DNA from: a bacterium HR29
Lineage (GTDB): Bacteria > Chloroflexota > Dehalococcoidia > Tepidiformales > Tepidiformaceae
DNA length: 64,000 nt
Direction of reading: 5' to 3'
NCBI GenBank assembly: GCA_002898215.1
Contig: BEIF01000001.1
Coordinates: 229,501-293,500 of the forward strand
Shown here piece after piece: positions 53,431 through 64,000 of this stretch. The notes under the pieces were generated by a model. The model saw only the letters and a list, made by a program, of their open reading frames with translations. It did no database searches and was not told where the DNA came from. Each line of letters starts with the position of its first letter. Positions within the stretch are counted from its first letter, which is position 1. The position numbers were made by a program, and so were the translations under genes.

Positions 53431-54213
53431 GTGAATCGTCCCAGCGGTACCAGCTTGTTCTCACTCTCTCCCTCCGAGGCGCGGGTGCTCGGCTCGGTCG
53501 AGACGCCGCTCGTCCTCCGCTTCCTGCGCCCAGCGAGCTTCGCCCTCTGGTTCCTCGTCTTCTGCATCCAGGTAGTGATGCTCGTCGCCGACTCCTCCCA
53601 GTCGGTCTGGCTCGCGCTCGTGCTCTCGACCGCTCTCTTCGCCGGCGTCCACATCCAGTTCTGGTACGAGGAGTCCGAACAGGGGCGGCGCCTCCATCAC
53701 CTCCTCGAGCGTATGCGAGGCCGCATCTACGAGGACGAACTCACCGGCCTCCCCAACGCCCGCCACTTCGTCTTCGAGCTGCGCCGCCAGATGATGCGCT
53801 CGATGCGCAACGGCCGCAGCTTCTCGGTAATCATCGCCGAGCTCCATGGCTTCGACGCCGTCGATGCCGACGAGCAGGAGCGGATCGCCCGCGCCGCCGC
53901 CAAGGCGCTGCGGGCGGCCGTCGGGGACAGCGATTTCGTGGCGCGGCTGCAGGGCGGCATCTTCGCCTCCATCGTCACCGATGACAAGGAGCGGACCATC
54001 GGCGAGAAGCGCGACGCCGTGCTCTGCGCCGTAGCATCGGCGGTCCCGCTCGAGCGGGCCGCAGTGATCCAGCCGATCGTCACCATGACGGGTTACGAAG
54101 GGGAGCTGGAGGTTCGGGAGCTCCTCCGACGGGCCCAGCGGGACCTCCACGCTGCTCGCGCGCGGGGGTTCGCCGGCAGCCTTCCTCGCCCCCTCTCCCG
54201 CACTGCCGCCTGA
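53431..54213 (+). CDS. Membrane protein with degenerate GGDEF domain
   Basis: 260 residues from GTG 53431 (GGGAG site; an alternative GTG at 53389 adds 14 residues). Two hydrophobic segments lie at about 30-75, then DELTGLPNARHFVFELRRQM marks a GGDEF fold (the DxLTGLPN-type entry). Where diguanylate cyclases have GGDEF, the sequence reads RLQGGIFASI, so catalytic acidic residues are missing. The protein may bind GTP or act as a receptor but is unlikely to make c-di-GMP. It is the last gene before the long gene-free region. Confidence 0.78.
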   Translation: MNRPSGTSLFSLSPSEARVLGSVETPLVLRFLRPASFALWFLVFCIQVVMLVADSSQSVWLALVLSTALFAGVHIQFWYEESEQGRRLHHLLERMRGRIYEDELTGLPNARHFVFELRRQMMRSMRNGRSFSVIIAELHGFDAVDADEQERIARAAAKALRAAVGDSDFVARLQGGIFASIVTDDKERTIGEKRDAVLCAVASAVPLERAAVIQPIVTMTGYEGELEVRELLRRAQRDLHAARARGFAGSLPRPLSRTAA

Positions 54214-55081
54214 ACTCTCCGAGCACGAGGCCCTGCCCGCAGGGAGGCCGATTCCAGCACCGACGGCGAGCCGGCAGGCTTTGCGGGCGACGCCCAAAAC
54301 GACAAGCCCGCGAGGCGGCGGATTCCGGCACCGGCGGCGAGAGCCGGGCCTCCTCGGCCTGGTGTCTCTCATCCACCTCGCACCCAGAGAAGGCTGCCGC
54401 GCGAGGCCGATTCGGACGTTGCGCCGCCGCATGGGGCCGGGGCGCCGCTTATCCCGCCTCGAAACCCGTCCCGATGTCTCCCCTCGGGGAGGGCTCGCCC
54501 GTACCGTCGCCCCACGGCTCCCTTCGGCCGCGCGGCGCCGGTCCCCACGCCACGACGGCCGGAACGAGCAGGCAGCGGTCCCGTGTCCCGGCGGGCTGGG
54601 TACGTCGGGGTGGAGCTTCCTGCGGGGAACGCGCGGGCACGGCCTTCGCTGGCGGCTCGGTGCTGGTGAGGAGCTGAGGCGCGTGGGCGCAGCGAGCGCC
54701 CGAGGCCGATCGGGCGGGCTGCACAGCTCACCTGAGTCCCGGGGCGGAGCGCTCGTGGGCCCATGGTGAGGTCGCAAGCTCGGCCGGGAGTTGCTGGAGC
54801 GCGGACACCGGCCCCGCTCTTCCGGAGCGTTCGGCACCTCACGGGCGCGTCTTAGTCACGCTCTTGGGACCCCGGCGCACCCACGAGAGCAGCCGCAGCG
54901 CTGCGGATCTCCGGGGCGCGGTGGCCCGACGCGGTGCGGAGGACGTGGTGGGGCGGGGAGAGACGCCGTCGCCCAGTCGGCCTTCACGCACGGTGGTCGC
55001 ATGGGAGCGTTCGGCCGCCTCCGTGGCGGACGGCGGTGCTGGGGGCTTGCAAATTGGCGAGCGATGTGGGAAACTACGCCG
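54214..55081. other. Gene-free GC-rich region
   Basis: About 870 bases hold no open frame with protein-like composition on either strand. I see a loose imperfect direct repeat (54249-54270 against 54319-54341, around GATTCC-GGCACC-GGCGGCGAG) and four scattered copies of GAGGCCGAT (near 54244, 54403, 54702 and, degenerate, 54312). No tRNA, rRNA, RNase P or tmRNA signature is apparent. It separates core genes on the left from accessory genes on the right. Confidence 0.5.
55047..55075 (+). promoter_or_regulatory. Weak candidate promoter of the SAM riboswitch RNA
   Basis: TTGCAA (55047-55052) and GAAACT (55070-55075) with a 17-base spacer would start RNA just at the riboswitch P1 stem. Both boxes deviate from consensus. 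Confidence 0.35.
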
Positions 55082-55189
55082 CGTATCGAGAGAGGCGCGA
55101 GGGTACCGGCCCGATGACCGCCCGGCAACCCGGTGGACGCCGCCAGGGTGCCAAAGCCGGCCCCGTCCAATAGGGCGGGGGACGATACG
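55082..55189 (+). ncRNA. SAM riboswitch (S-box, SAM-I clan)
   Basis: The P1 stem is CGTATCG (55082-55088) with CGATACG (55183-55189). Inside are the S-box conserved segments in order: AGAGAGG, GAGGG then CCGGCCCGATGA, CCCGGCAACC, GGTGCCAAAGCCGGC, and a P4-like CCCGTCC-AATA-GGGCGGG hairpin. S-box RNAs bind S-adenosylmethionine and switch off methionine or SAM genes in cis. No such gene follows: the next ORF is nine codons, then a MoxR ATPase. This may be a riboswitch left after loss of its gene, or one regulating something unusual. Confidence 0.87.
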
Positions 55190-55220
55190 GCTCACGTCGG
55201 GAGCAACCAACGGCGTGGGC

Positions 55221-55237
55221 CCCTCCGCGCGGGAGGG
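55221..55237 (+). terminator. Possible expression-platform hairpin of the SAM riboswitch
   Basis: CCCTCC pairs with GGAGGG around a five-base loop, about 30 bases after the aptamer. There is no T-run, so a role in masking a ribosome site or in Rho-dependent control is as likely as intrinsic termination. Confidence 0.3.
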
Positions 55238-55274
55238 AGTTACCGCCCGCGACATCGAACAGGAGGGTGCCGGT

Positions 55275-55304
55275 ATGAGGTTCGTGCACGACCGCTCCGG
55301 TTAG
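55275..55304 (+). CDS. Nine-codon ORF after the SAM riboswitch
   Basis: ATG AGG TTC GTG CAC GAC CGC TCC GGT TAG encodes MRFVHDRSG. An AGGAGGG site lies eight bases before the ATG, stronger than for many genes here. The position suits a leader peptide or the remnant 5' end of a lost SAM-controlled gene. I recognise no homologue. Confidence 0.35.
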   Translation: MRFVHDRSG

Positions 55305-55414
55305 GCCCTTGTCCTTCCCTTGAGCTTGCGCTCCTCCCAGGCAGGCGCCGCCGCGTGCCGTGCGCGGTCACGCCCGTCTCTCTCGAAGACTGCCTTCTAG
55401 GAGGAGCAGAGACC

Positions 55415-56509
55415 GTGAACGCCGTCCTCGTTGCGCTCGCCATCGCCGTCCAGGCGCGCATTCCCGTTCTCCTCTGGGGGCCGCCCGGCACCGGCAAGTC
55501 CTCCGCCGTCCGGCAACTCGGCCAGGTCCTCGGCCTTCCCGTCGAGACCGTCATCGCTTCCATTCGGGAACCGACCGACTTCGCCGGTCTCCCCGTGGTG
55601 GGGGAGGGAGGCGTCCACTTCGCCCCGCCCTCCTGGGCGGTGCGTCTCGCCCAGGCCGGCAACGGCATCCTCTTCCTCGACGAGCTGACGACGGCCCCGC
55701 CGGCCGTGCAAGCGGCCCTGTTGCGGGTCGTCCTCGAGCGGGTCGTGGGCGACCTGGAGTTGCCGCCCGAAGTCGCCGTCGTGGCCGCCGCCAACCCGCC
55801 CTCCCAGGCTGCGGGGGGTTGGGACCTCAGCTTGCCGCTCACGAACCGGTTCGTGCACCTTCACTGGTCAGTTAACGCTACCCACTGGGCGAACGGCTTC
55901 GCGTCCGGTTGGCAGGTCCCCGTTGACTTGAAGCTCCCCGCGGGTTGGAAGGCCGAGCTTCCGGTCGCGAGAGAGGTCGTCGCCGCATTCATCCGTCGCA
56001 GGCCTTCGCTTCTCTTGCGGCCACCGGGAGACGAGCGGAACCGAGAGGTGGAGGAGCTCGCCTGGCCCTCGCCGCGCAGCTGGGAGCTCGCCGCGACCGC
56101 GCTCGCAGCTGTGCAGGCGGTGAACGCGTCCAAGGCTGTTTGCGAACACCTGGTGTTCGGTGCCGTCGGTGAGGGTGCCGGTCGAGAGTTCCTGAAAGCC
56201 CTCGAGGAAGGGAAGCTTCGCGACGTGGAGCAAGCGCTCCGGGACCCTCGCCGGTTCCGCGTCCCCGACCGCTCGGACATCCTCCACGCGTTTCTCGAGG
56301 CGCTCTGCGACCGGGTGATTGCGGACCTCTCCGGGAAAGAGTCGCAGCACCTGTGGAAAACGGCGTGGGCGATCCTCGCCCGCGTCGCTCGCCTCCGAAG
56401 TGCAGACGCCGTGGCGCCCTTCGCACTCAGGTTGGCAGCGGCAGGGGAAGGGACGCACGAGCTCGGTCCCGAGGCGGAGGCGCTCCTCCGCAGGCTGGCC
56501 GGGAGGTGA
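55415..56509 (+). CDS. MoxR-type AAA ATPase
   Basis: 364 residues from GTG 55415, with AGGAGG ten bases before it; the open frame continues upstream through the riboswitch but is not protein-like there. Walker A is GPPGTGKSS (about 19-27), Walker B LFLDELTTAPP, and sensor I VAAANPPSQ. The C-terminal lid is long and helical. MoxR ATPases work with VWA proteins as chaperones or in assembly of complexes. The partner gene starts seven bases downstream. Confidence 0.88.
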   Translation: MNAVLVALAIAVQARIPVLLWGPPGTGKSSAVRQLGQVLGLPVETVIASIREPTDFAGLPVVGEGGVHFAPPSWAVRLAQAGNGILFLDELTTAPPAVQAALLRVVLERVVGDLELPPEVAVVAAANPPSQAAGGWDLSLPLTNRFVHLHWSVNATHWANGFASGWQVPVDLKLPAGWKAELPVAREVVAAFIRRRPSLLLRPPGDERNREVEELAWPSPRSWELAATALAAVQAVNASKAVCEHLVFGAVGEGAGREFLKALEEGKLRDVEQALRDPRRFRVPDRSDILHAFLEALCDRVIADLSGKESQHLWKTAWAILARVARLRSADAVAPFALRLAAAGEGTHELGPEAEALLRRLAGR

Positions 56510-56515
56510 TGCAGG

Positions 56516-58327
56516 GTGCGACCGATCGAGTCTGTCGAGATTATGGCCGGGGACGCCGAGTGGATCGAGTACGACCCCGAGGAAGAGTACTTCTTGGCGC
56601 CGCTAATGTCGGGAACCGTCGGCCTCGACGTTTGGCCCGGCGAGGAGCCCCCGAGAGGATTGCACTCCCCCCAGCGTTCCGGTGCCGCGGAGGCGTACCT
56701 CTGGGCGTGGTTCGGACCGGCCCCAATGGTCGGTTATTCGGCCACCTACTGGGTCGTCCGGGTGGGAGGTGTGGCGGTCGTCGTCCGATACCCGGGTGAC
56801 GAGCCGTTCGAGGGGCTCCTGAGGGCGTTGGGGAGGTCCAACGCCACTGCCGAAGAGCTCAGTGATGTCGAAGCGGTTCTCCAGACTTCGTTTCCGGATT
56901 GGAGCCCGCAGCTTGTGCGGGCAGAACGGGTGATTCGGCGACATTTTCGCCGAAAGCTAGAGGAGCCTTTTCTCACGACGGCCCGGCAGGCAATAAATAT
57001 TCAGTGGACCCTCGCCTATGAAGAGGAAGATTCCCCCAGACGGCGTTTCGAGGAGGCAAGGCAGCTGCTGCTGCTGAGATTCCCCTTTTTCAGCGCAGCA
57101 GCGTGGAACTTGAAGCTTATCGAAACGCCAGGGATCGGCACAGTATCGGTGGACCCCGCCGCGCGGTGCTACGTCGATCCTGCGTGGGTTGTTAAGCTCA
57201 AGGCTAGTGAGTTTGCGGGGGTTCTGTACCACGAGCTTTCGCATCTCATCCGCATGCATTTCCACAGAGGGCAGCGGATCGGTGCGGACCCGAAGCTGTG
57301 GAATCTCGCCTGCGACCTCGAGATCAACGACGCGAAGGACTTTCGCCAGGCCCGAGCGCGCTTGTCGCTGCCTGTGGAAGCGGTTCGACCATCGGAATTC
57401 GGGCTTCCCGAGGGTCTGACGGCCGAAGAGTATTACGTCGGTCTCCGTTACCGCGACGCTGACGCACTGCCTCTCGCCCGTGGCATCGCTTTCGGAAGGT
57501 GCGGAAGCGTCGCTTCCGGCAGTCCTGAACCGTGGGAGCGCTCTCCTGACGCGGCTGGCGACGGTGATGGTTTGGAAAAGAAGAGGGGAGCGCCTGCCGA
57601 GAGCGCCCAGGGCAGGCGGCCGTTTTGGCAGGAGAACGGCGATGCGGACCTCTCGGAGCGGCCGAGCGTCGCGCTCGAGGTGAACGAATTTGCCCAACGC
57701 GTGGCTCGGTCCATCATGTCGGACCAGACCTGGGGGAATCGCCCGGGAACGATTCCCGGCTCCTGGAAGCGCTGGGCTCGCCGGCGCCTGTCCAGCTCGT
57801 ACGACTGGCGGCCCGAACTTGCCAGAGCGGTCCGGGGAGCGTTGGCAGAGGCGTCTGGCATGGTCGACTACACGTTCCGCCGCCCGTCCCGGCGGTCGAG
57901 CGTGCTGTGGCCGGTTATCCTCCCTGCCCTGCGGGCGCCGCGTCCCGACGTTGCCGTCATCGTCGACACATCCGGGAGCATGTCCGAGGAGCTGCTCGGC
58001 AAGGCGCTAGGAGAGCTGGAGGGAATTCTCAAAGCGAACGACCGGCAACGGGTTACGGTTTACGCTGTCGACGCTGCTGTCCACGTCGTGCAGCGGGTCT
58101 GGCGTGCCGGGGACGTCGAGCTCCGCGGTGGCGGCGGGACGGACATGGGCGTGGGCATCAAGGCCGCACTCAAGCAGAGGCCCCGCCCGAGCCTCATCGT
58201 CGTCCTCACCGACGGTCACACTCCCTGGCCGAAGAGACCGCCAGCGGTTCCAGTCGTTGTGGGGCTGCTCGGCAGGGGTTACGCCTGGGGACCGACTTGG
58301 GCGACGACGGTGTCCATTCCCGCCTAG
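56516..58327 (+). CDS. DUF2201-type metallopeptidase/VWA protein, MoxR partner
   Basis: 603 residues from GTG 56516. An N-terminal region of about 130 residues has no motif I recognise. A metallopeptidase-like domain follows with HELSHLIRMH (His239-Glu240-x2-His243) and a downstream CDLEINDAKDF segment. A disordered, charged linker spans about 340-395. The C-terminal VWA-like domain has an intact MIDAS entry DTSGSMSEE and TDMG and VLTDGH further on. This is the architecture of DUF2201 proteins paired with MoxR ATPases; their target is not known. Its 3' end lies 175 bases before the first CRISPR repeat. Confidence 0.87.
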   Translation: MRPIESVEIMAGDAEWIEYDPEEEYFLAPLMSGTVGLDVWPGEEPPRGLHSPQRSGAAEAYLWAWFGPAPMVGYSATYWVVRVGGVAVVVRYPGDEPFEGLLRALGRSNATAEELSDVEAVLQTSFPDWSPQLVRAERVIRRHFRRKLEEPFLTTARQAINIQWTLAYEEEDSPRRRFEEARQLLLLRFPFFSAAAWNLKLIETPGIGTVSVDPAARCYVDPAWVVKLKASEFAGVLYHELSHLIRMHFHRGQRIGADPKLWNLACDLEINDAKDFRQARARLSLPVEAVRPSEFGLPEGLTAEEYYVGLRYRDADALPLARGIAFGRCGSVASGSPEPWERSPDAAGDGDGLEKKRGAPAESAQGRRPFWQENGDADLSERPSVALEVNEFAQRVARSIMSDQTWGNRPGTIPGSWKRWARRRLSSSYDWRPELARAVRGALAEASGMVDYTFRRPSRRSSVLWPVILPALRAPRPDVAVIVDTSGSMSEELLGKALGELEGILKANDRQRVTVYAVDAAVHVVQRVWRAGDVELRGGGGTDMGVGIKAALKQRPRPSLIVVLTDGHTPWPKRPPAVPVVVGLLGRGYAWGPTWATTVSIPA

Positions 58328-58502: not shown

Positions 58503-58538
58503 GTTGCAGTCCCCCGGAGGGGAATTTCACGGAGGAAC
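58503..58538 (+). repeat. Solitary, perfect CRISPR repeat copy
   Basis: A 36-base copy identical to the array consensus (starts GTTGCAGT, ends GGAGGAAC), in the same orientation as the main array but 1.2 kb to its left. The segment to its right is lower in GC and carries a lipoprotein gene, so an original array seems to have been split. Confidence 0.9.
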
Positions 58539-58757
58539 TGCTGAAGGTATCTTGATCCCAGGAATCAGCGGTTATGGGTTTCTCTCAAAAGAGTAGGATG
58601 GGTGTTGCGAGTGCAAGTTAGGCGCGAACACCGGGAGGACGGCCCCGCCCGGCAATCTATGTGATCTCGGCCGGCGCTCGCCCACCGGCAAAGCAGGGGA
58701 GAAGCACCTGCGAACATTAAACGCCGGACACGCCCCTCGCACAACTGGGCAAACCCA

Positions 58758-58786
58758 AAGCGGGACACAATCTCTGTGTCCCGCTT
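58758..58786. terminator. Bidirectional terminator of the lipoprotein gene
   Basis: AAGCGGGACACA pairs perfectly over 12 bp with TGTGTCCCGCTT around a five-base loop. It lies 25 bases beyond the stop of the minus-strand gene and is followed on the plus strand by GCTTTTG, so it may also act in that direction. Confidence 0.75.
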
Positions 58787-58811
58787 GCTTTTGTGGCAGG
58801 TCTCAATGCTC

Positions 58812-59489
58812 TCAATACAATCCCTCGAGCGCGTCTATAAGCTCCAGACCGTTTTCTGCTTCACTTGTCAGCGTCGCGCCGTCTTTCGCGAGTAAGGCCT
58901 GTTCCTGCTTGGCAATACTCGCCAAAAATGGGGCCGCGACATCTTTTCCGTCGTGTTCCAACACAGAAGCCTTCACGTTGTCCCAGACTGACTTGACCTT
59001 TGCCAAACTTGCCGCCGCCGCGTCATAATTGTGCGCGGCCACATCGAGAACAACCTGACGCTCCCACACGTCCAACCGCCCAATATCAGCAGGCACTTTC
59101 GGATGGTAGATAGCGAACAATTCAATAACTGCGGCGCTCAACTCATTGGCGGATTGCATAGTGGCCAATGCATCTTTAGCCGCAGATGCGGTCTGGAGTT
59201 TAACAAGCGCAGTTGAAAGCGCGTCCTGTGTGGCTTGGGGTGCACCATCTTTGCTCGCTTGAGCTTGATAAGCCTTCCAGGACTTCGCGATGTCTGTAAC
59301 GTCCGCGTTAATCCTGTCCCAATGTCCGGTCGGAGCAGAGTCAATAATATCCTCCGCAGCGGCTTCAATAGTCTGCAGAGAATCCGGTACGGCGCCAGTG
59401 TGTGTTGCCGCTGGTTTCCCGCCGCAGGCGGAAAGTGCTGCAACAGCAACCAGCAGTATCAGGGCAAGAGATGGAATACGGTCGGTCAT
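58812..59489 (-). CDS. Predicted lipoprotein, unknown, lower-GC insertion
   Basis: 225 residues from ATG 59489. The N-terminus TDRIPSLALILLVAVAALSACGG is a lipoprotein signal with a lipobox-type LSAC; acylation of C21 is expected. The mature part is helical and Ala-, Asp- and Lys-rich, with alternating helices of about 30 residues (for example KVPADIGRLDVWERQVVLDV), resembling a helical bundle. I do not recognise the family. The gene and its flanks have visibly lower GC than neighbours, and it stands between CRISPR remnants, so horizontal arrival is likely. Confidence 0.75.
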   Translation of the reverse strand: MTDRIPSLALILLVAVAALSACGGKPAATHTGAVPDSLQTIEAAAEDIIDSAPTGHWDRINADVTDIAKSWKAYQAQASKDGAPQATQDALSTALVKLQTASAAKDALATMQSANELSAAVIELFAIYHPKVPADIGRLDVWERQVVLDVAAHNYDAAAASLAKVKSVWDNVKASVLEHDGKDVAAPFLASIAKQEQALLAKDGATLTSEAENGLELIDALEGLY

Positions 59490-59570
59490 TTGCAGGCGTT
59501 CCTTGTGAGTGTTGGGTAGTAGGCTCGCTTTTAAGGGCACGTTCAAGGGGTGGTCACGTTTACGCTCGGA

Positions 59571-59621
59571 GTTGCCGTCCCCCGGAGGGCCAGCGTCAGT
59601 CTAGCACAGTGACGGAGGAGC
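59571..59621 (+). repeat. Disrupted CRISPR repeat remnant
   Basis: GTTGCCGTCCCCCGGAGGG (59571-59589) matches the first 19 consensus bases with one mismatch, and ACGGAGGAGC (59612-59621) matches the end with one mismatch. The middle is replaced by about 22 unrelated bases instead of six. It is spaced 94 bases from the next remnant, near one repeat-spacer unit. Confidence 0.65.
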
Positions 59622-59664
59622 CGGGTGGATGGCGTCGGTCGCGGGCGGGATGCGGGAGGCTCGA

Positions 59665-59700
59665 CCTTCAGTCGCCCGGTGGGGAGCTTCACAGAGGAAG
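59665..59700 (+). repeat. Degenerate CRISPR repeat
   Basis: Over the last 32 consensus positions (59669-59700), 26 bases agree. It lies 82 bases before the first intact repeat, in register with the array period of about 77. Such decay is typical of the leader-distal (trailer) end. Confidence 0.75.
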
Positions 59701-59746
59701 GGCCGGGGGTGGGGGTTCCCGCCCGCCGGGCGTCACCCGCGAGCGG

Positions 59747-62008
59747 GTTGCAGTCCCCCGGAGGGGAATTTCACGGAGGAACACAAAGGAGGTACGGCAG
59801 TGAACACGGAACTTTGGAAGGTTGCAGTTCCCCGGAGGGGAATTTCACGGAGGAACTCGCCCGAGGTGCAGCGGATCTTTGAGGCGCTGCGCCTGCACGT
59901 TGCAGTCCCCCGGAGGGGAATTTCACGGAGGAACAGCGAGCAGCGCGCCCTCGCGGTTGCACGGGCATACCTGTTGCAGTCCCCCGGAGGGGAATTTCAC
60001 GGAGGAACATCGACATTGTCGGGAGCCGGCTGGTGCTCCTGATTCGGAAGTTGCAGTCCCCCGGAGGGGAATTTCACGGAGGAACAGCAGCACGACACGA
60101 GGAGGTACACGCACGTGAGGTTCTTCTCGTTGCAGTCCCCCGGAGGGGAATTTCACGGAGGAACAAAAAGAAGATCAAATTCGTTGCAGTTTCGTGTCAC
60201 AAAGACTTGCAGTCCCCCGGAGGGGAATTTCACGGAGGAACGTGGCACGAGCGCCCATTGTCAGCTCTGCACTGCCCATCCTGTTGCAGTCCCCCGGAGG
60301 GGAATTTCACGGAGGAACCCGTCTTACGTTCGCGAATGGTTGGCGTCGGCGGCAGCTGAGATGGAGTTGCAGTCCCCCGGAGGGGAATTTCACGGAGGAA
60401 CGGGGCTCATCGGCCCCACAGCCCGAGCCGCGCGCCCCAACGTTGCAGTCCCCCGGAGGGGAATTTCACGGAGGAACCTGAGGACGCGGCCTGGCAGGTA
60501 TGGCCATTACTGCCGCAGTTGCAGTCCCCCGGAGGGGAATTTCACGGAGGAACGACATCCTGGGCGTAGACCCAGGGCGAGTGCGGCAGTCATCGTGTTG
60601 CAGTCCCCCGGAGGGGAATTTCACGGAGGAACCTGGACGGCGCGGGGCGCGGGCGCGGTCGCGTCCAATTTATGTTGCAGTCCCCCGGAGGGGAATTTCA
60701 CGGAGGAACAAGCTCGGACGGCGCGTGGAGGTCTTGTTGCTCCAGTCCATGTTGCAGTCCCCCGGAGGGGAATTTCACGGAGGAACCTGGAAGTCGTTGA
60801 ATTGCCGGCCTTGTTGGCGTCGCCGGTTGCAGTCCCCCGGAGGGGAATTTCACGGAGGAACCTGACGTCAGTCGTCACCCAGATCGACGGGCAGGCGAAC
60901 CGTTGCAGTCCCCCGGAGGGGAATTTCACGGAGGAACTCCGAATTTATGCGCCGTGGAGGAGTCGCGATGAGTGTGGACATGTTGCAGTCCCCCGGAGGG
61001 GAATTTCACGGAGGAACACGTCATCGGCGCGGATCCCTCGCGGATTCGCCAATCGGCGTTGCAGTCCCCCGGAGGGGAATTTCACGGAGGAACGTCGAAG
61101 AGGCCCGCGCCGAGTGGGTGCGCCTGCGCGACGCGTTGCAGTCCCCCGGAGGGGAATTTCACGGAGGAACTCCCTCGACCTCATCCCCGACTGGGACAAG
61201 GCCGCCGACGTTGCAGTCCCCCGGAGGGGAATTTCACGGAGGAACTAGGCATCGAGGGCATCCTGTCGCTCTTCTACGGCTTCAGGTTGCAGTCCCCCGG
61301 AGGGGAATTTCACGGAGGAACCCTTGCTCGCGCCCGTCGCCCGACGGCCCCGGCCCAACGTCTGGGGTTGCAGTCCCCCGGAGGGGAATTTCACGGAGGA
61401 ACAGCTCCCGTTGAGCCGCTCAACCGCCTGCTGGGTGCGCCTCGAGTTGCAGTCCCCCGGAGGGGAATTTCACGGAGGAACGCCGTCCCCGAACGCCGAA
61501 GGCGCCGTCCCCCGAACGCCGTTGCAGTCCCCCGGAGGGGAATTTCACGGAGGAACCCAGCGCACCACGATCAGCTCCCACGGTGGCTCGCCTCCAGTTG
61601 CAGTCCCCCGGAGGGGAATTTCACGGAGGAACGGGAAAGAATACTACTACGTCCAAATCCGGGACTGAGGTCGTGTTGCAGTCCCCCGGAGGGGAATTTC
61701 ACGGAGGAACGGAAATTCAGGCGCTCGAAGTCAACGAAGCACTCGAGCTGTTGCAGTCCCCCGGAGGGGAATTTCACGGAGGAACCTCATTATACCCTTG
61801 CCAAGGCCTGTTACGGAACGATGTTGCAGTCCCCCGGAGGGGAATTTCACGGAGGAACTATTCGCAATGAATTCGTTGTGCGAGAGGCATATTCCAGTTG
61901 CAGTCCCCCGGAGGGGAATTTCACGGAGGAACTAAATGAGCAGTGTTGGGTTGCGGCAGAAGAAATTTTGTAGTTGCAGTCCCCCGGAGGGGAATTTCAC
62001 GGAGGAAC
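59747..62008 (-). CRISPR. CRISPR array, 30 repeats and 29 spacers
   Basis: The 36-base repeat (plus strand: GTTGCAGT, CCCC-CGGA-GGGG palindrome, AATTTCAC, GGAGGAAC) recurs 30 times from 59747 to 62008. Nearly all copies are identical; repeat 2 (59821) has one C to T change and repeat 7 (60206) begins with C. The 29 spacers are 37-47 bases, mostly 38-43. On the minus strand the hairpin ends 8 bases before the repeat 3' end, leaving ACTGCAAC, the shape of a Cas6-type handle; I therefore give the minus strand. Decayed repeats lie to the left, and the right end is one base from the cas2 stop codon. No effector genes are present, so the subtype is open; type III is favoured by handle and spacer sense. 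Confidence 0.97.
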
Positions 62009-62009
62009 C

Positions 62010-62321
62010 CTATTCCCGGTCGCCGTCCGCACCAGCTATTATCGTCAGATACGGCGTCTCGACAAGGCCAGGCCCACCGAACCGCACGATAGCCAGCGCT
62101 GCCTGCTTCGTGAGCCGGTAGATTCGGATGAGGTCCCCCTCGCACCACATGCGCCCGACTCGCTTCACCAGCTCCTCGTACTCGGAAGGTCGCAGGTCGC
62201 ACTCGAACACGCTGCGCTGGACTCGGTCCCCGTAGCCGGCGAGGAGCCGTGCCAACTTCGCCCGACGACGGTCATCGGGAATGTCGTACGCTACCACGAC
62301 GTAGCTTTCACCCGCTCGCAC
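62010..62321 (-). CDS. cas2: CRISPR-associated protein Cas2
   Basis: 103 residues. The ferredoxin-fold N-terminus is SYVVVAYDIPDDRRR with D13 at the family metal position, then GDRVQRSVFECDL and IRIYRLTKQ. Cas2 bridges two Cas1 dimers in spacer integration. Its start overlaps the cas1 end by 14 bases. The stop (62010-62012) is followed on the minus strand by one base and then the first array repeat, an unusually tight junction. Confidence 0.95.
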   Translation of the reverse strand: MRAGESYVVVAYDIPDDRRRAKLARLLAGYGDRVQRSVFECDLRPSEYEELVKRVGRMWCEGDLIRIYRLTKQAALAIVRFGGPGLVETPYLTIIAGADGDRE

Positions 62322-63303
62322 GGCCTTCCCAACGCTCGGCGGTGGCGATGGGCCGGTACGCGCCCGGCTTCCCGGTGCGGATGGCCCGGGCCAGCGCCCC
62401 GGCTTGACGCTCGATGATCTCGTCCCAGGGGAGGGAACGGCCGGCGGGGGCGTAGAAGGTGCGGCGCAAGAGCCGCTCCTCCAGGGCTTTCACCGCGGCC
62501 GTTCGGGCTTCGCTCGAAAGACGGACACCGCCCTCGCCGACCTCCCACCAGCCGCTCGGTCCGAACGCTCGGAGGAGGCGAAGCACGAGGAAGTCGCAGA
62601 AGGGTGCTCTGAGCTCCTCCAGAAGGTCGAGGACGAGGGATGGCCGGCCGCGTCCAGGCGTGTGGAGGAGCCCCAGGTAAGGGTCGAGGCCCGCCGTCGC
62701 CGCCGCGCGCTGGACGACGGGCAACGCGACCATGTAGACGTACGAGAGCAGCGCGTTTACCGGGTCGGGAGGAGGCCGACGCCTCCGCGTCCAGTCACTC
62801 CCGACGCCCAGCGCAGGGCGGAGCGCGGCGAAGTAGGCGCGAGAGGCTAGCCCCTCGCACCCGGCGACCTCGTTCGCGGAGGTCGCCACTCGCAGGGCCC
62901 GAGCAGCTTTCACCCACTCGCGGGGCAAGGGAGTGCGCAGGGCCCGAAGGACCCGCATCTGTCCGTGGAGCTTGTTCCGTACGATGACGCGGGCGAAGGC
63001 GGCGCGCCGAGCAGGGTCGGCGACGGTGAGGGCCTGACGGAGCTTCAGTTCCACTGGAGTCGCAGCAGGGGTCTCGAGTCGGCCGCGGTACGCTCCTTTC
63101 GCCGAGAGGAACACCACGTCGGCGCCGCTGGTTAGGAGGCGTACTAGTGCGCCCGCCGAGATGTGAACGGCACCGTGGATCACCAGCCGGTCCAGCAAAG
63201 GGGGGCGGAGCTCTTGCACGATGACGCCGCCGGTCGCGACGACGAGGCGCTCCCCCTCGGCGCGGAGCTCGGCACCCTGTTCCCGAAGGTGGACGACTCG
63301 CAT
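62308..63303 (-). CDS. cas1: CRISPR-associated endonuclease Cas1
   Basis: 331 residues from ATG 63303; the open frame continues upstream into the antisense of the next gene and is not Cas1-like there. The beta-strand N-domain covers about 1-85. Catalytic metal ligands are E150 in CEGLASRAYF, H214 in LLHTPGRGRPSL and D226 in VLDLLEELR, all intact. It performs spacer integration with Cas2. No reverse transcriptase or Cas4 domain is fused. Confidence 0.95.
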   Translation of the reverse strand: MRVVHLREQGAELRAEGERLVVATGGVIVQELRPPLLDRLVIHGAVHISAGALVRLLTSGADVVFLSAKGAYRGRLETPAATPVELKLRQALTVADPARRAAFARVIVRNKLHGQMRVLRALRTPLPREWVKAARALRVATSANEVAGCEGLASRAYFAALRPALGVGSDWTRRRRPPPDPVNALLSYVYMVALPVVQRAAATAGLDPYLGLLHTPGRGRPSLVLDLLEELRAPFCDFLVLRLLRAFGPSGWWEVGEGGVRLSSEARTAAVKALEERLLRRTFYAPAGRSLPWDEIIERQAGALARAIRTGKPGAYRPIATAERWEGRASG

Positions 63304-63339
63304 CGGTGGGAAAGCCCCCAGCTTCGATGTCCCCCGTCG

Positions 63340-63360
63340 GCTCGCCCCCCTAGGGCGAGC
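63340..63360. other. Hairpin at the end of the HEPN-motif gene
   Basis: GCTCGCCC pairs perfectly with GGGCGAGC over 8 bp around CCCTA, the loop including the stop codon of the minus-strand gene. It lies 36 bases before the cas1 start. No T-run follows; it may be a weak terminator or processing site between the two genes. Confidence 0.4.
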
Positions 63361-63967
63361 AAGCCTTGGGTAGCTCTTCGAGGCACCCGCGGAGCTTCGA
63401 GACGAACTTCCGCAGGCTGTCGGGGGCAGTGGGTGCCTGGTCCCATGCCTCCCAATCCCAGCATTCAAACACCTGGGTGAGCGCCTGGAGCGCCAGCCGA
63501 AGCACGCGTCGGGCTTCGTCGTGGTCGGTGGTGCCGGTGTGGACGAGCTGGTTGCGGAGCTCGGCGAGCCGTTCGAACGGCGCGAGGTCGCCCCGCTGCT
63601 GCAGCTGCGACGTGAACTGGTCGAGTTCGACGAGGGCGTGCCGTCGGTTCCGTTCGCCTTCGAGCCGCCACCGGTGGTCTTTCTCCACCTCGCGCAAGCG
63701 ACAGCGGAGGTCTTCCGGGAGGCGGTCGTAGTCGGCGCGCCGAACGTTGTCGGGGTCGAACCCGCACGCGGACTTGAGCCTGGCGCGGATGGCAACCTCC
63801 CAGGCCGTCACGCCGGCGACGAGGGCGCGCGTCAATCGCTCGCTTTCGAAGAGCCGTGCCGCGGCCGCGGCGAGTTCCGCCGGCAAGGTGGCCAGGTTCT
63901 TGCGGTCGGTCGAAGCGGCCTTCCCGAACCATTGCTTCAGGCGGTCGAGCTCTCCGCGGAGGGCCAC
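63350..63967 (-). CDS. HEPN-motif protein next to cas1, possibly cut by the window edge
   Basis: 205 residues if GTG 63967 is the start, but the frame stays open to the window end, so the gene may be longer. It is largely helical. Near the C-terminus LAELRNQLVHTG contains R138-N139-x3-H143, the R-x4-6-H catalytic motif of HEPN RNases with the usual polar residue after Arg. An N-terminal helix with WEVAIRARLK and a middle charged region fit a HEPN fold. It lies 46 bases upstream of cas1 on the same strand. Known CRISPR HEPN proteins (Csm6, Csx1) are larger and carry a CARF domain, which is not seen here. The motif is short, so the assignment is tentative. Confidence 0.6.
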   Translation of the reverse strand: MALRGELDRLKQWFGKAASTDRKNLATLPAELAAAAARLFESERLTRALVAGVTAWEVAIRARLKSACGFDPDNVRRADYDRLPEDLRCRLREVEKDHRWRLEGERNRRHALVELDQFTSQLQQRGDLAPFERLAELRNQLVHTGTTDHDEARRVLRLALQALTQVFECWDWEAWDQAPTAPDSLRKFVSKLRGCLEELPKACSP

Positions 63968-64000
63968 GTTGGGTCCCGGGGTGGCCGCATCCCTCGCCCC

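Follow-up and report, generated by a model that had tools for sequence, protein, structure and literature searches.

A SAM-I riboswitch carrying an added P5/PK-2 module probably controls a two-gene MoxR-VWA operon of bacterium HR29, plausibly by means of an OFF switch and a short leader ORF. The operon is the most likely target of this riboswitch in the window, that is, the whole stretch of 64,000 nucleotides analysed here. The sequence-only reading had reported a well-formed S-box aptamer followed by a nine-codon ORF with a strong ribosome site and then by an AAA ATPase instead of a methionine or SAM gene. All of this was confirmed: the covariance model scores above its threshold, the short ORF is preceded by AGGAGG, and the next genes code for a MoxR ATPase and a DUF2201/VWA protein, with no met/SAM gene between or beside the aptamer, the short ORF and these two genes.

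RF00162 (SAM-I, S-box) covers positions 55080-55191 of the plus strand over its full model length with 57.3 bits (gathering threshold 44.4, E 1.3e-10), and is the best-scoring clan model for this element. According to the Rfam alignment, a k-turn P2, PK-1, P3 and P4 are arranged around the SAM core, the letters of which (GGCAACC / GGUGCCA) are intact. The element is a SAM-clan variant, nearest to SAM-I by score, and presumably binds SAM. Its parts and the adjoining elements are:

55080-55191, plus strand: SAM-I (S-box) aptamer, RF00162 match, 89.7% identical to that of T. flava
55082-55087/55184-55189, plus strand: P1, placed from the sequence and the Rfam alignment
55106-55110 with 55156-55160, plus strand: PK-1, L2 CCGGC with GCCGG, placed in the same way
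55137-55142, plus strand: P3-loop strand of the proposed PK-2 (ACGCCG), complementary to 55211-55216
55190-55204, plus strand: P5 hairpin GCUC-ACGUCGG-GAGC, with a layout like P5 of SAM-IV (PMC6890682)
55211-55216, plus strand: 3' strand of the proposed PK-2 (CGGCGU), within the motif (G)CAACNAACGGCG common to the SAM-I/IV aptamers L069, L093 and L094
55189-55199/55211-55221, plus strand: alternative 11-bp stem, which includes the 3' strand of PK-2
55217-55226, plus strand: conserved anti-SD GGGCCCCUCC, where conservation with T. flava stops

The conserved element reaches past the Rfam model and includes P5, the PK-2 strand and the anti-SD, up to 55226. Downstream of P1, P5 (retained in T. flava as GCUC-ACGUC-GAGC) is followed by AACCAACGGCG, whose CGGCG complements CGCCG of the P3 loop, which is the layout of PK-2. 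In the alignment with SAM-I/IV aptamers of the window's family, the last column of PK-2 changes on both sides (G-C in five and U-A in 24 distinct sequences), three columns are invariant, and the first column is a non-standard pair in 13 of the 29. As PK-2 is identical in both MoxR aptamers, those of the window and T. flava, support for it comes from the comparison with the SAM-I/IV relatives, and the complementarity suggests that PK-2 forms in the window RNA.

The leader DNA was searched for in 61 genomes, and one twin was found, in T. flava YIM 72310, from the genus Tepidiforma of the window's family (G032, C1:2049009; RF00162 55.4 bits); the other matches were other SAM-clan aptamers or short chance matches. 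Gene order is the same in both genomes: aptamer, short ORF, MoxR, DUF2201/VWA. Identity between them is 91.4% over 55080-55226, 50% in the rest of the leader and 60.7% in the MoxR gene DNA, and the drop after 55226 indicates that the constrained unit ends at the anti-SD. Differences between the two aptamers are concentrated in P4, with both strands changing.

The leader downstream of this unit contains the following elements:

55261-55266, plus strand: Shine-Dalgarno sequence AGGAGG of the leader ORF, 8 nt before its ATG
55275 (ATG) to 55302-55304 (TAG), plus strand: nine-codon leader ORF MRFVHDRSG*
55331-55337, plus strand: CUCCUCC, a candidate strand sequestering the MoxR Shine-Dalgarno sequence by predicted pairing
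55400-55406, plus strand: MoxR Shine-Dalgarno sequence GGAGGAG

A short ORF preceded by a Shine-Dalgarno sequence arises in 2.8% of dinucleotide shuffles of the window leader and in 2.6% of those of the T. flava leader, so a strong leader-ORF ribosome site in both leaders is unlikely by chance. The ORF at the matching place in T. flava is a different one (MQARSP*), with no conservation of the peptide sequence. For a GC-rich RNA of 360 nt, folding predictions carry limited weight. A fold in which P1 and P5 are imposed and the PK-2 strand is held pairs the leader-ORF Shine-Dalgarno sequence with 55221-55226 of the anti-SD (p about 0.95 for the window, 0.92 for T. flava). In the same bound-like fold the MoxR Shine-Dalgarno sequence is also paired, at p about 0.99 in the window (55331-55337 with 55400-55406) and 0.84 in T. 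flava. Without constraints, the probability that the leader-ORF Shine-Dalgarno sequence pairs with the anti-SD is about 0.5 for the window, and in T. flava this sequence has other pairing partners. Masking of the leader-ORF ribosome site by the constrained folds of both genomes favours an OFF switch acting at leader-ORF translation.

As a rule, a MoxR ATPase and its VWA partner form a pair with a role in assembly or remodelling. In the window, a MoxR AAA gene adjoins a VWA gene with a metallopeptidase-like N-terminus:

55415-56509, plus strand: MoxR-type AAA ATPase of 364 aa with a GTG start (PF07728, AAA_5, 42.4 bits; PF20030, bpMoxR, 33.3 bits)
56516-58327, plus strand: protein of 603 aa with a metallopeptidase-like DUF2201_N part and a DUF2201 VWA part (PF13203, 107 bits; PF09967, 66.1 bits)

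Compared with four Tepidiforma copies, the MoxR protein shows 53-55% identity. Its matches in PDB and NCBIfam were generic AAA ones only, and the VWA protein had no useful match there. The window proteins match the phage families phrog_1297 and phrog_1314; the latter is labelled HNH endonuclease in PHROG and matches the 56516-58327 product at 172 bits; the label looks wrong. RavA-ViaA is an example of a MoxR/VWA pair (PMC3893208), and phage MoxR-vWA homologues were proposed to serve virion assembly (PMC7824862). By analogy with these pairs, the window operon may encode an ATPase/VWA pair assembling or remodelling a protein complex. The SAM link bears on the timing of its expression and leaves its activity aside.

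SAM-clan aptamers recur before homologous MoxR-VWA pairs, which supports the earlier suggestion that the riboswitch controls this pair. A search of the genome collection with the VWA alignment returned 16 loci, 12 of them outside Tepidiforma. At one of these, L109 (Acidimicrobiaceae, Actinomycetota), a SAM-I aptamer (57.4 bits) ends 16 nt before the ATG of a MoxR gene whose product is 49% identical to the window MoxR. A phylum search with the MoxR alignment found SAM-I/IV aptamers (65.3 and 65.6 bits, gathering threshold 41.1) upstream of MoxR in G963 and G942, which belong to another Chloroflexota family. Judging by complementarity, PK-2 can form there between GCGAC of the P3 loop and a 3' GUCGC, and the CUCCUG that comes right after it is able to pair with the MoxR Shine-Dalgarno sequence CAGGAG. 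DUF2201/VWA follows MoxR in L109 and in G963, where it is in two pieces around an undetermined base; the G942 contig ends inside this gene. At L188, L189 and L109 there is no such short ORF and the aptamers face MoxR directly.

Most MoxR-VWA loci have no SAM aptamer, so this control is optional. The aptamer is absent from 14 of 15 Acidimicrobiia loci of this MoxR family, from 17 of 19 loci of the family in a further scan, from the Actinomycetota MoxR loci in further samples scanned and from the three other Tepidiforma MoxR-VWA copies (L060, L061 and L062). A model match of 20.5 bits at L103, distant from MoxR, was attributed to chance. In Tepidiforma sp. KatS3mg062, a c-di-AMP riboswitch (RF00379, 54.2 bits; L061 15805-15960) and the MoxR-VWA pair are a few kb apart. 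The MoxR tree (31 rows) requires four changes of the aptamer label, forced by well-supported branches, which means that the pairing was gained and/or lost repeatedly. Since only a few SAM-clan aptamers occur per genome scanned, chance can hardly account for three aptamer types preceding a single gene family. The association of aptamers with MoxR-VWA is well supported, and its presence in three separate bacterial lineages with three sensor designs probably reflects a real control circuit, not a leftover.

From what is directly observed (the aptamer, its conservation, its recurrent position before MoxR-VWA and the complementarities), an OFF switch coupled to the operon through the nine-codon ORF is plausible. 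SAM binding would stabilise P1 and the PK-2 pseudoknot (55137-55142 with 55211-55216), and this would prevent the alternative stem 55189-55199/55211-55221. The anti-SD at 55217-55226, once freed, would mask the ribosome site of the nine-codon ORF. With the leader ORF untranslated, a hairpin between 55331-55337 and 55400-55406 would continue to hold the MoxR Shine-Dalgarno sequence, the leader RNA would terminate early, or both. When SAM falls, the leader ORF would be translated, and then MoxR-VWA.

This lineage may habitually use short ORFs in such control. The window genome (2.34 Mb) has two SAM-I aptamers, one here and one before a threonine synthase gene; metK, so named on the basis of its sequence, is preceded by a SAM-I/IV aptamer. 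Most SAM-clan aptamers examined in the window's family precede thrC or metK. In most genomes of the family the thrC leaders (L001, L018-L044) consist of a SAM-I aptamer and a short ORF (e.g., MVEFLGRMVML* or MSAPLGRMFMSLVP*) before threonine synthase. This ORF is conserved, with LGRMxM near its end in many genomes, and has a good Shine-Dalgarno sequence. Two of its internal codons are Met, and it may act as an attenuator that senses methionine. Overall, SAM riboswitches of this family appear to act through short leader ORFs.

Two further arrangements were seen. At G000:C1:11882 (L001) and in relatives, the SAM-I aptamer precedes a threonine synthase-like gene, and the next ORF begins with MAVKRVRFTFPEELIREPVIYRL, which we take to resemble NIL-domain proteins, so this operon may make homocysteine rather than threonine. 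At four loci of Tepidiforma and G023 (L005, L006, L007 and L013), a gene of unassigned function is preceded by SAM-I/IV and SAM-I aptamers in tandem, the SAM-I copy overlapping the ribosome site of the gene (GATTGGAGG).

We consider it possible, if rather unlikely, that control is transcriptional, by Rho or by an unusual leader terminator, with the short ORF merely modulating the access of Rho. The long leader, about 220 nt from the aptamer to MoxR, and the GC-rich hairpin right after the short ORF in the thrC leaders fit such control, and Rho coupling to a riboswitch-controlled uORF was discussed for M. tuberculosis ppe2 (PMC11260477). However, no U-tract terminator was found on this strand within 54000-56500, and at L109 the aptamer ends right at the ribosome site of MoxR, as would suit direct control of translation at that locus.

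The operon is followed by a CRISPR-Cas locus. A CRISPR array of about 30 repeats (GTTGCAGTCCCCCGGAGGGGAATTTCACGGAGGAAC) extends over 58503-62000, with a lone repeat at about 58503 set apart by an opposite-strand ORF (58812-59546). A type III-A system (Csx1/Csm6-like effector, Cas6, Csm5, Csm4, Csm3, Csm2 and Cas10), adjoining Cas1-Cas2, is located at 62010-64000 and in L098. In Tepidiforma sp. KatS3mg064 (L062 3686-13574), an aptamer-less MoxR-VWA pair lies directly before the HmaA and HmaB genes. A consistent defence neighbourhood found no support outside the window's family.

The operon could serve in defence or stress and be switched on by a fall in SAM, e.g., when a phage destroys SAM. This is compatible with the proposed OFF switch, and we regard it as improbable. 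MoxR-VWA occurrence is patchy, the window and T. flava operons are both beside CRISPR repeats and type III cas genes, the KatS3mg064 copy adjoins HmaA/HmaB, an N6 DNA methylase is near L109 and related pairs occur in phages (PMC7824862). On the other hand, the copies beside defence genes include one without an aptamer, other homologues are in unremarkable surroundings, no defence model matches the VWA protein, and the phage pairs were proposed to act in virion assembly (PMC7824862). The vicinity of CRISPR and type III cas genes hints at a role in defence or as an accessory system, but such surroundings are not general. Likewise improbable is the idea that a SAM drop, through consumption or destruction of SAM, e.g., by a phage, is an alarm releasing MoxR-VWA beside type III CRISPR, with a new SAM-clan architecture having PK-1, PK-2 and P4 at once as the sensor; if true, it would link methyl-donor status to an accessory ATPase system.

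The sequence-only reading had also offered two explanations in which MoxR-VWA is not the target. According to one, the gene originally controlled by the riboswitch was deleted, in which case it would have been a methionine or SAM gene and MoxR-VWA would be behind the aptamer by chance; the preference of the family's aptamers for thrC or metK and the position of the locus next to CRISPR arrays, a common border of accessory DNA, would agree with this. But T. flava keeps the same order, with an aptamer far more conserved than the MoxR gene, SAM-clan aptamers precede homologous pairs in two other lineages, and the core letters are intact. The conserved order contradicts the deletion and largely refutes this explanation, which we now find very improbable. 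According to the other, the nine-residue peptide is the regulated product, in which case MoxR would be independent; this is hardly credible despite the strong Shine-Dalgarno sequence and start directly behind the switch, as the T. flava peptide differs and the ORF is absent in two of the three lineages, and a role of the peptide as an intermediate step in the mechanism is likelier than one as its target.

SAM riboswitches normally precede methionine genes, and SAM-clan riboswitches serve to assign genes to methionine and SAM metabolism. Three aptamer designs before one MoxR-VWA pair give the first physiological clue to this pair, namely that it should respond to SAM, and make its function directly testable. 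Within the literature searched, no paper combines "SAM riboswitch" with "MoxR", MoxR with DUF2201, or MoxR with VWA and riboswitch; the papers examined that mention "riboswitch" and "MoxR" draw no link between them. Control of MoxR-VWA by a SAM riboswitch is probably an undescribed circuit.

The closest counterpart of the genes is the jumbo-phage MoxR-vWA pair (PMC7824862), which shares a MoxR AAA gene beside a metallopeptidase-VWA fusion but is phage-borne and has a proposed role in virion assembly. No SAM-I aptamer was found at any of 46 related viral MoxR-VWA loci. The control itself resembles that of M. tuberculosis metE and ppe2, which have B12 riboswitch-controlled uORFs (PMC11260477): in both cases a riboswitch and a short translated ORF set the expression of the next gene, whereas the window case, which is predicted, involves SAM as the ligand, another RNA class and other genes.

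Each of the three related SAM-clan classes shares a part of the architecture. Usual SAM-I (RF00162) has in common with the window aptamer the full-length match, k-turn P2, PK-1, P3, P4 and the core; the window aptamer then has P5 and a PK-2 strand, and precedes MoxR-VWA instead of methionine/SAM genes, whose presence is a usual but not a defining feature. SAM-I/IV (RF01725) shares P5 and PK-2 on the 3' side of P1; the (G)CAACNAANGGCG motif is also that of the family's SAM-I/IV aptamers. However, it has an unsplit P2 and no PK-1 (PMC6890682), while the window element has a k-turn splitting P2 as well as complementarity for PK-1. By score, the T. flava twin reaches 35.1 bits against the RF01725 gathering threshold of 41.1, and the window copy is not reported at E 0.001. 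SAM-IV (RF00634) shares the split P2, PK-1, P5 and PK-2 together; it differs from SAM-I in having PK-2 and P5 and no P4, and its P2 contains another kind of turn (PMC6890682), whereas the window and T. flava aptamers have P4. A full SAM-I core with P4 and PK-1, combined with P5 and a PK-2 strand, is outside the described SAM-I, SAM-I/IV and SAM-IV layouts, and a SAM-I aptamer with a PK-2 module is an addition to them.
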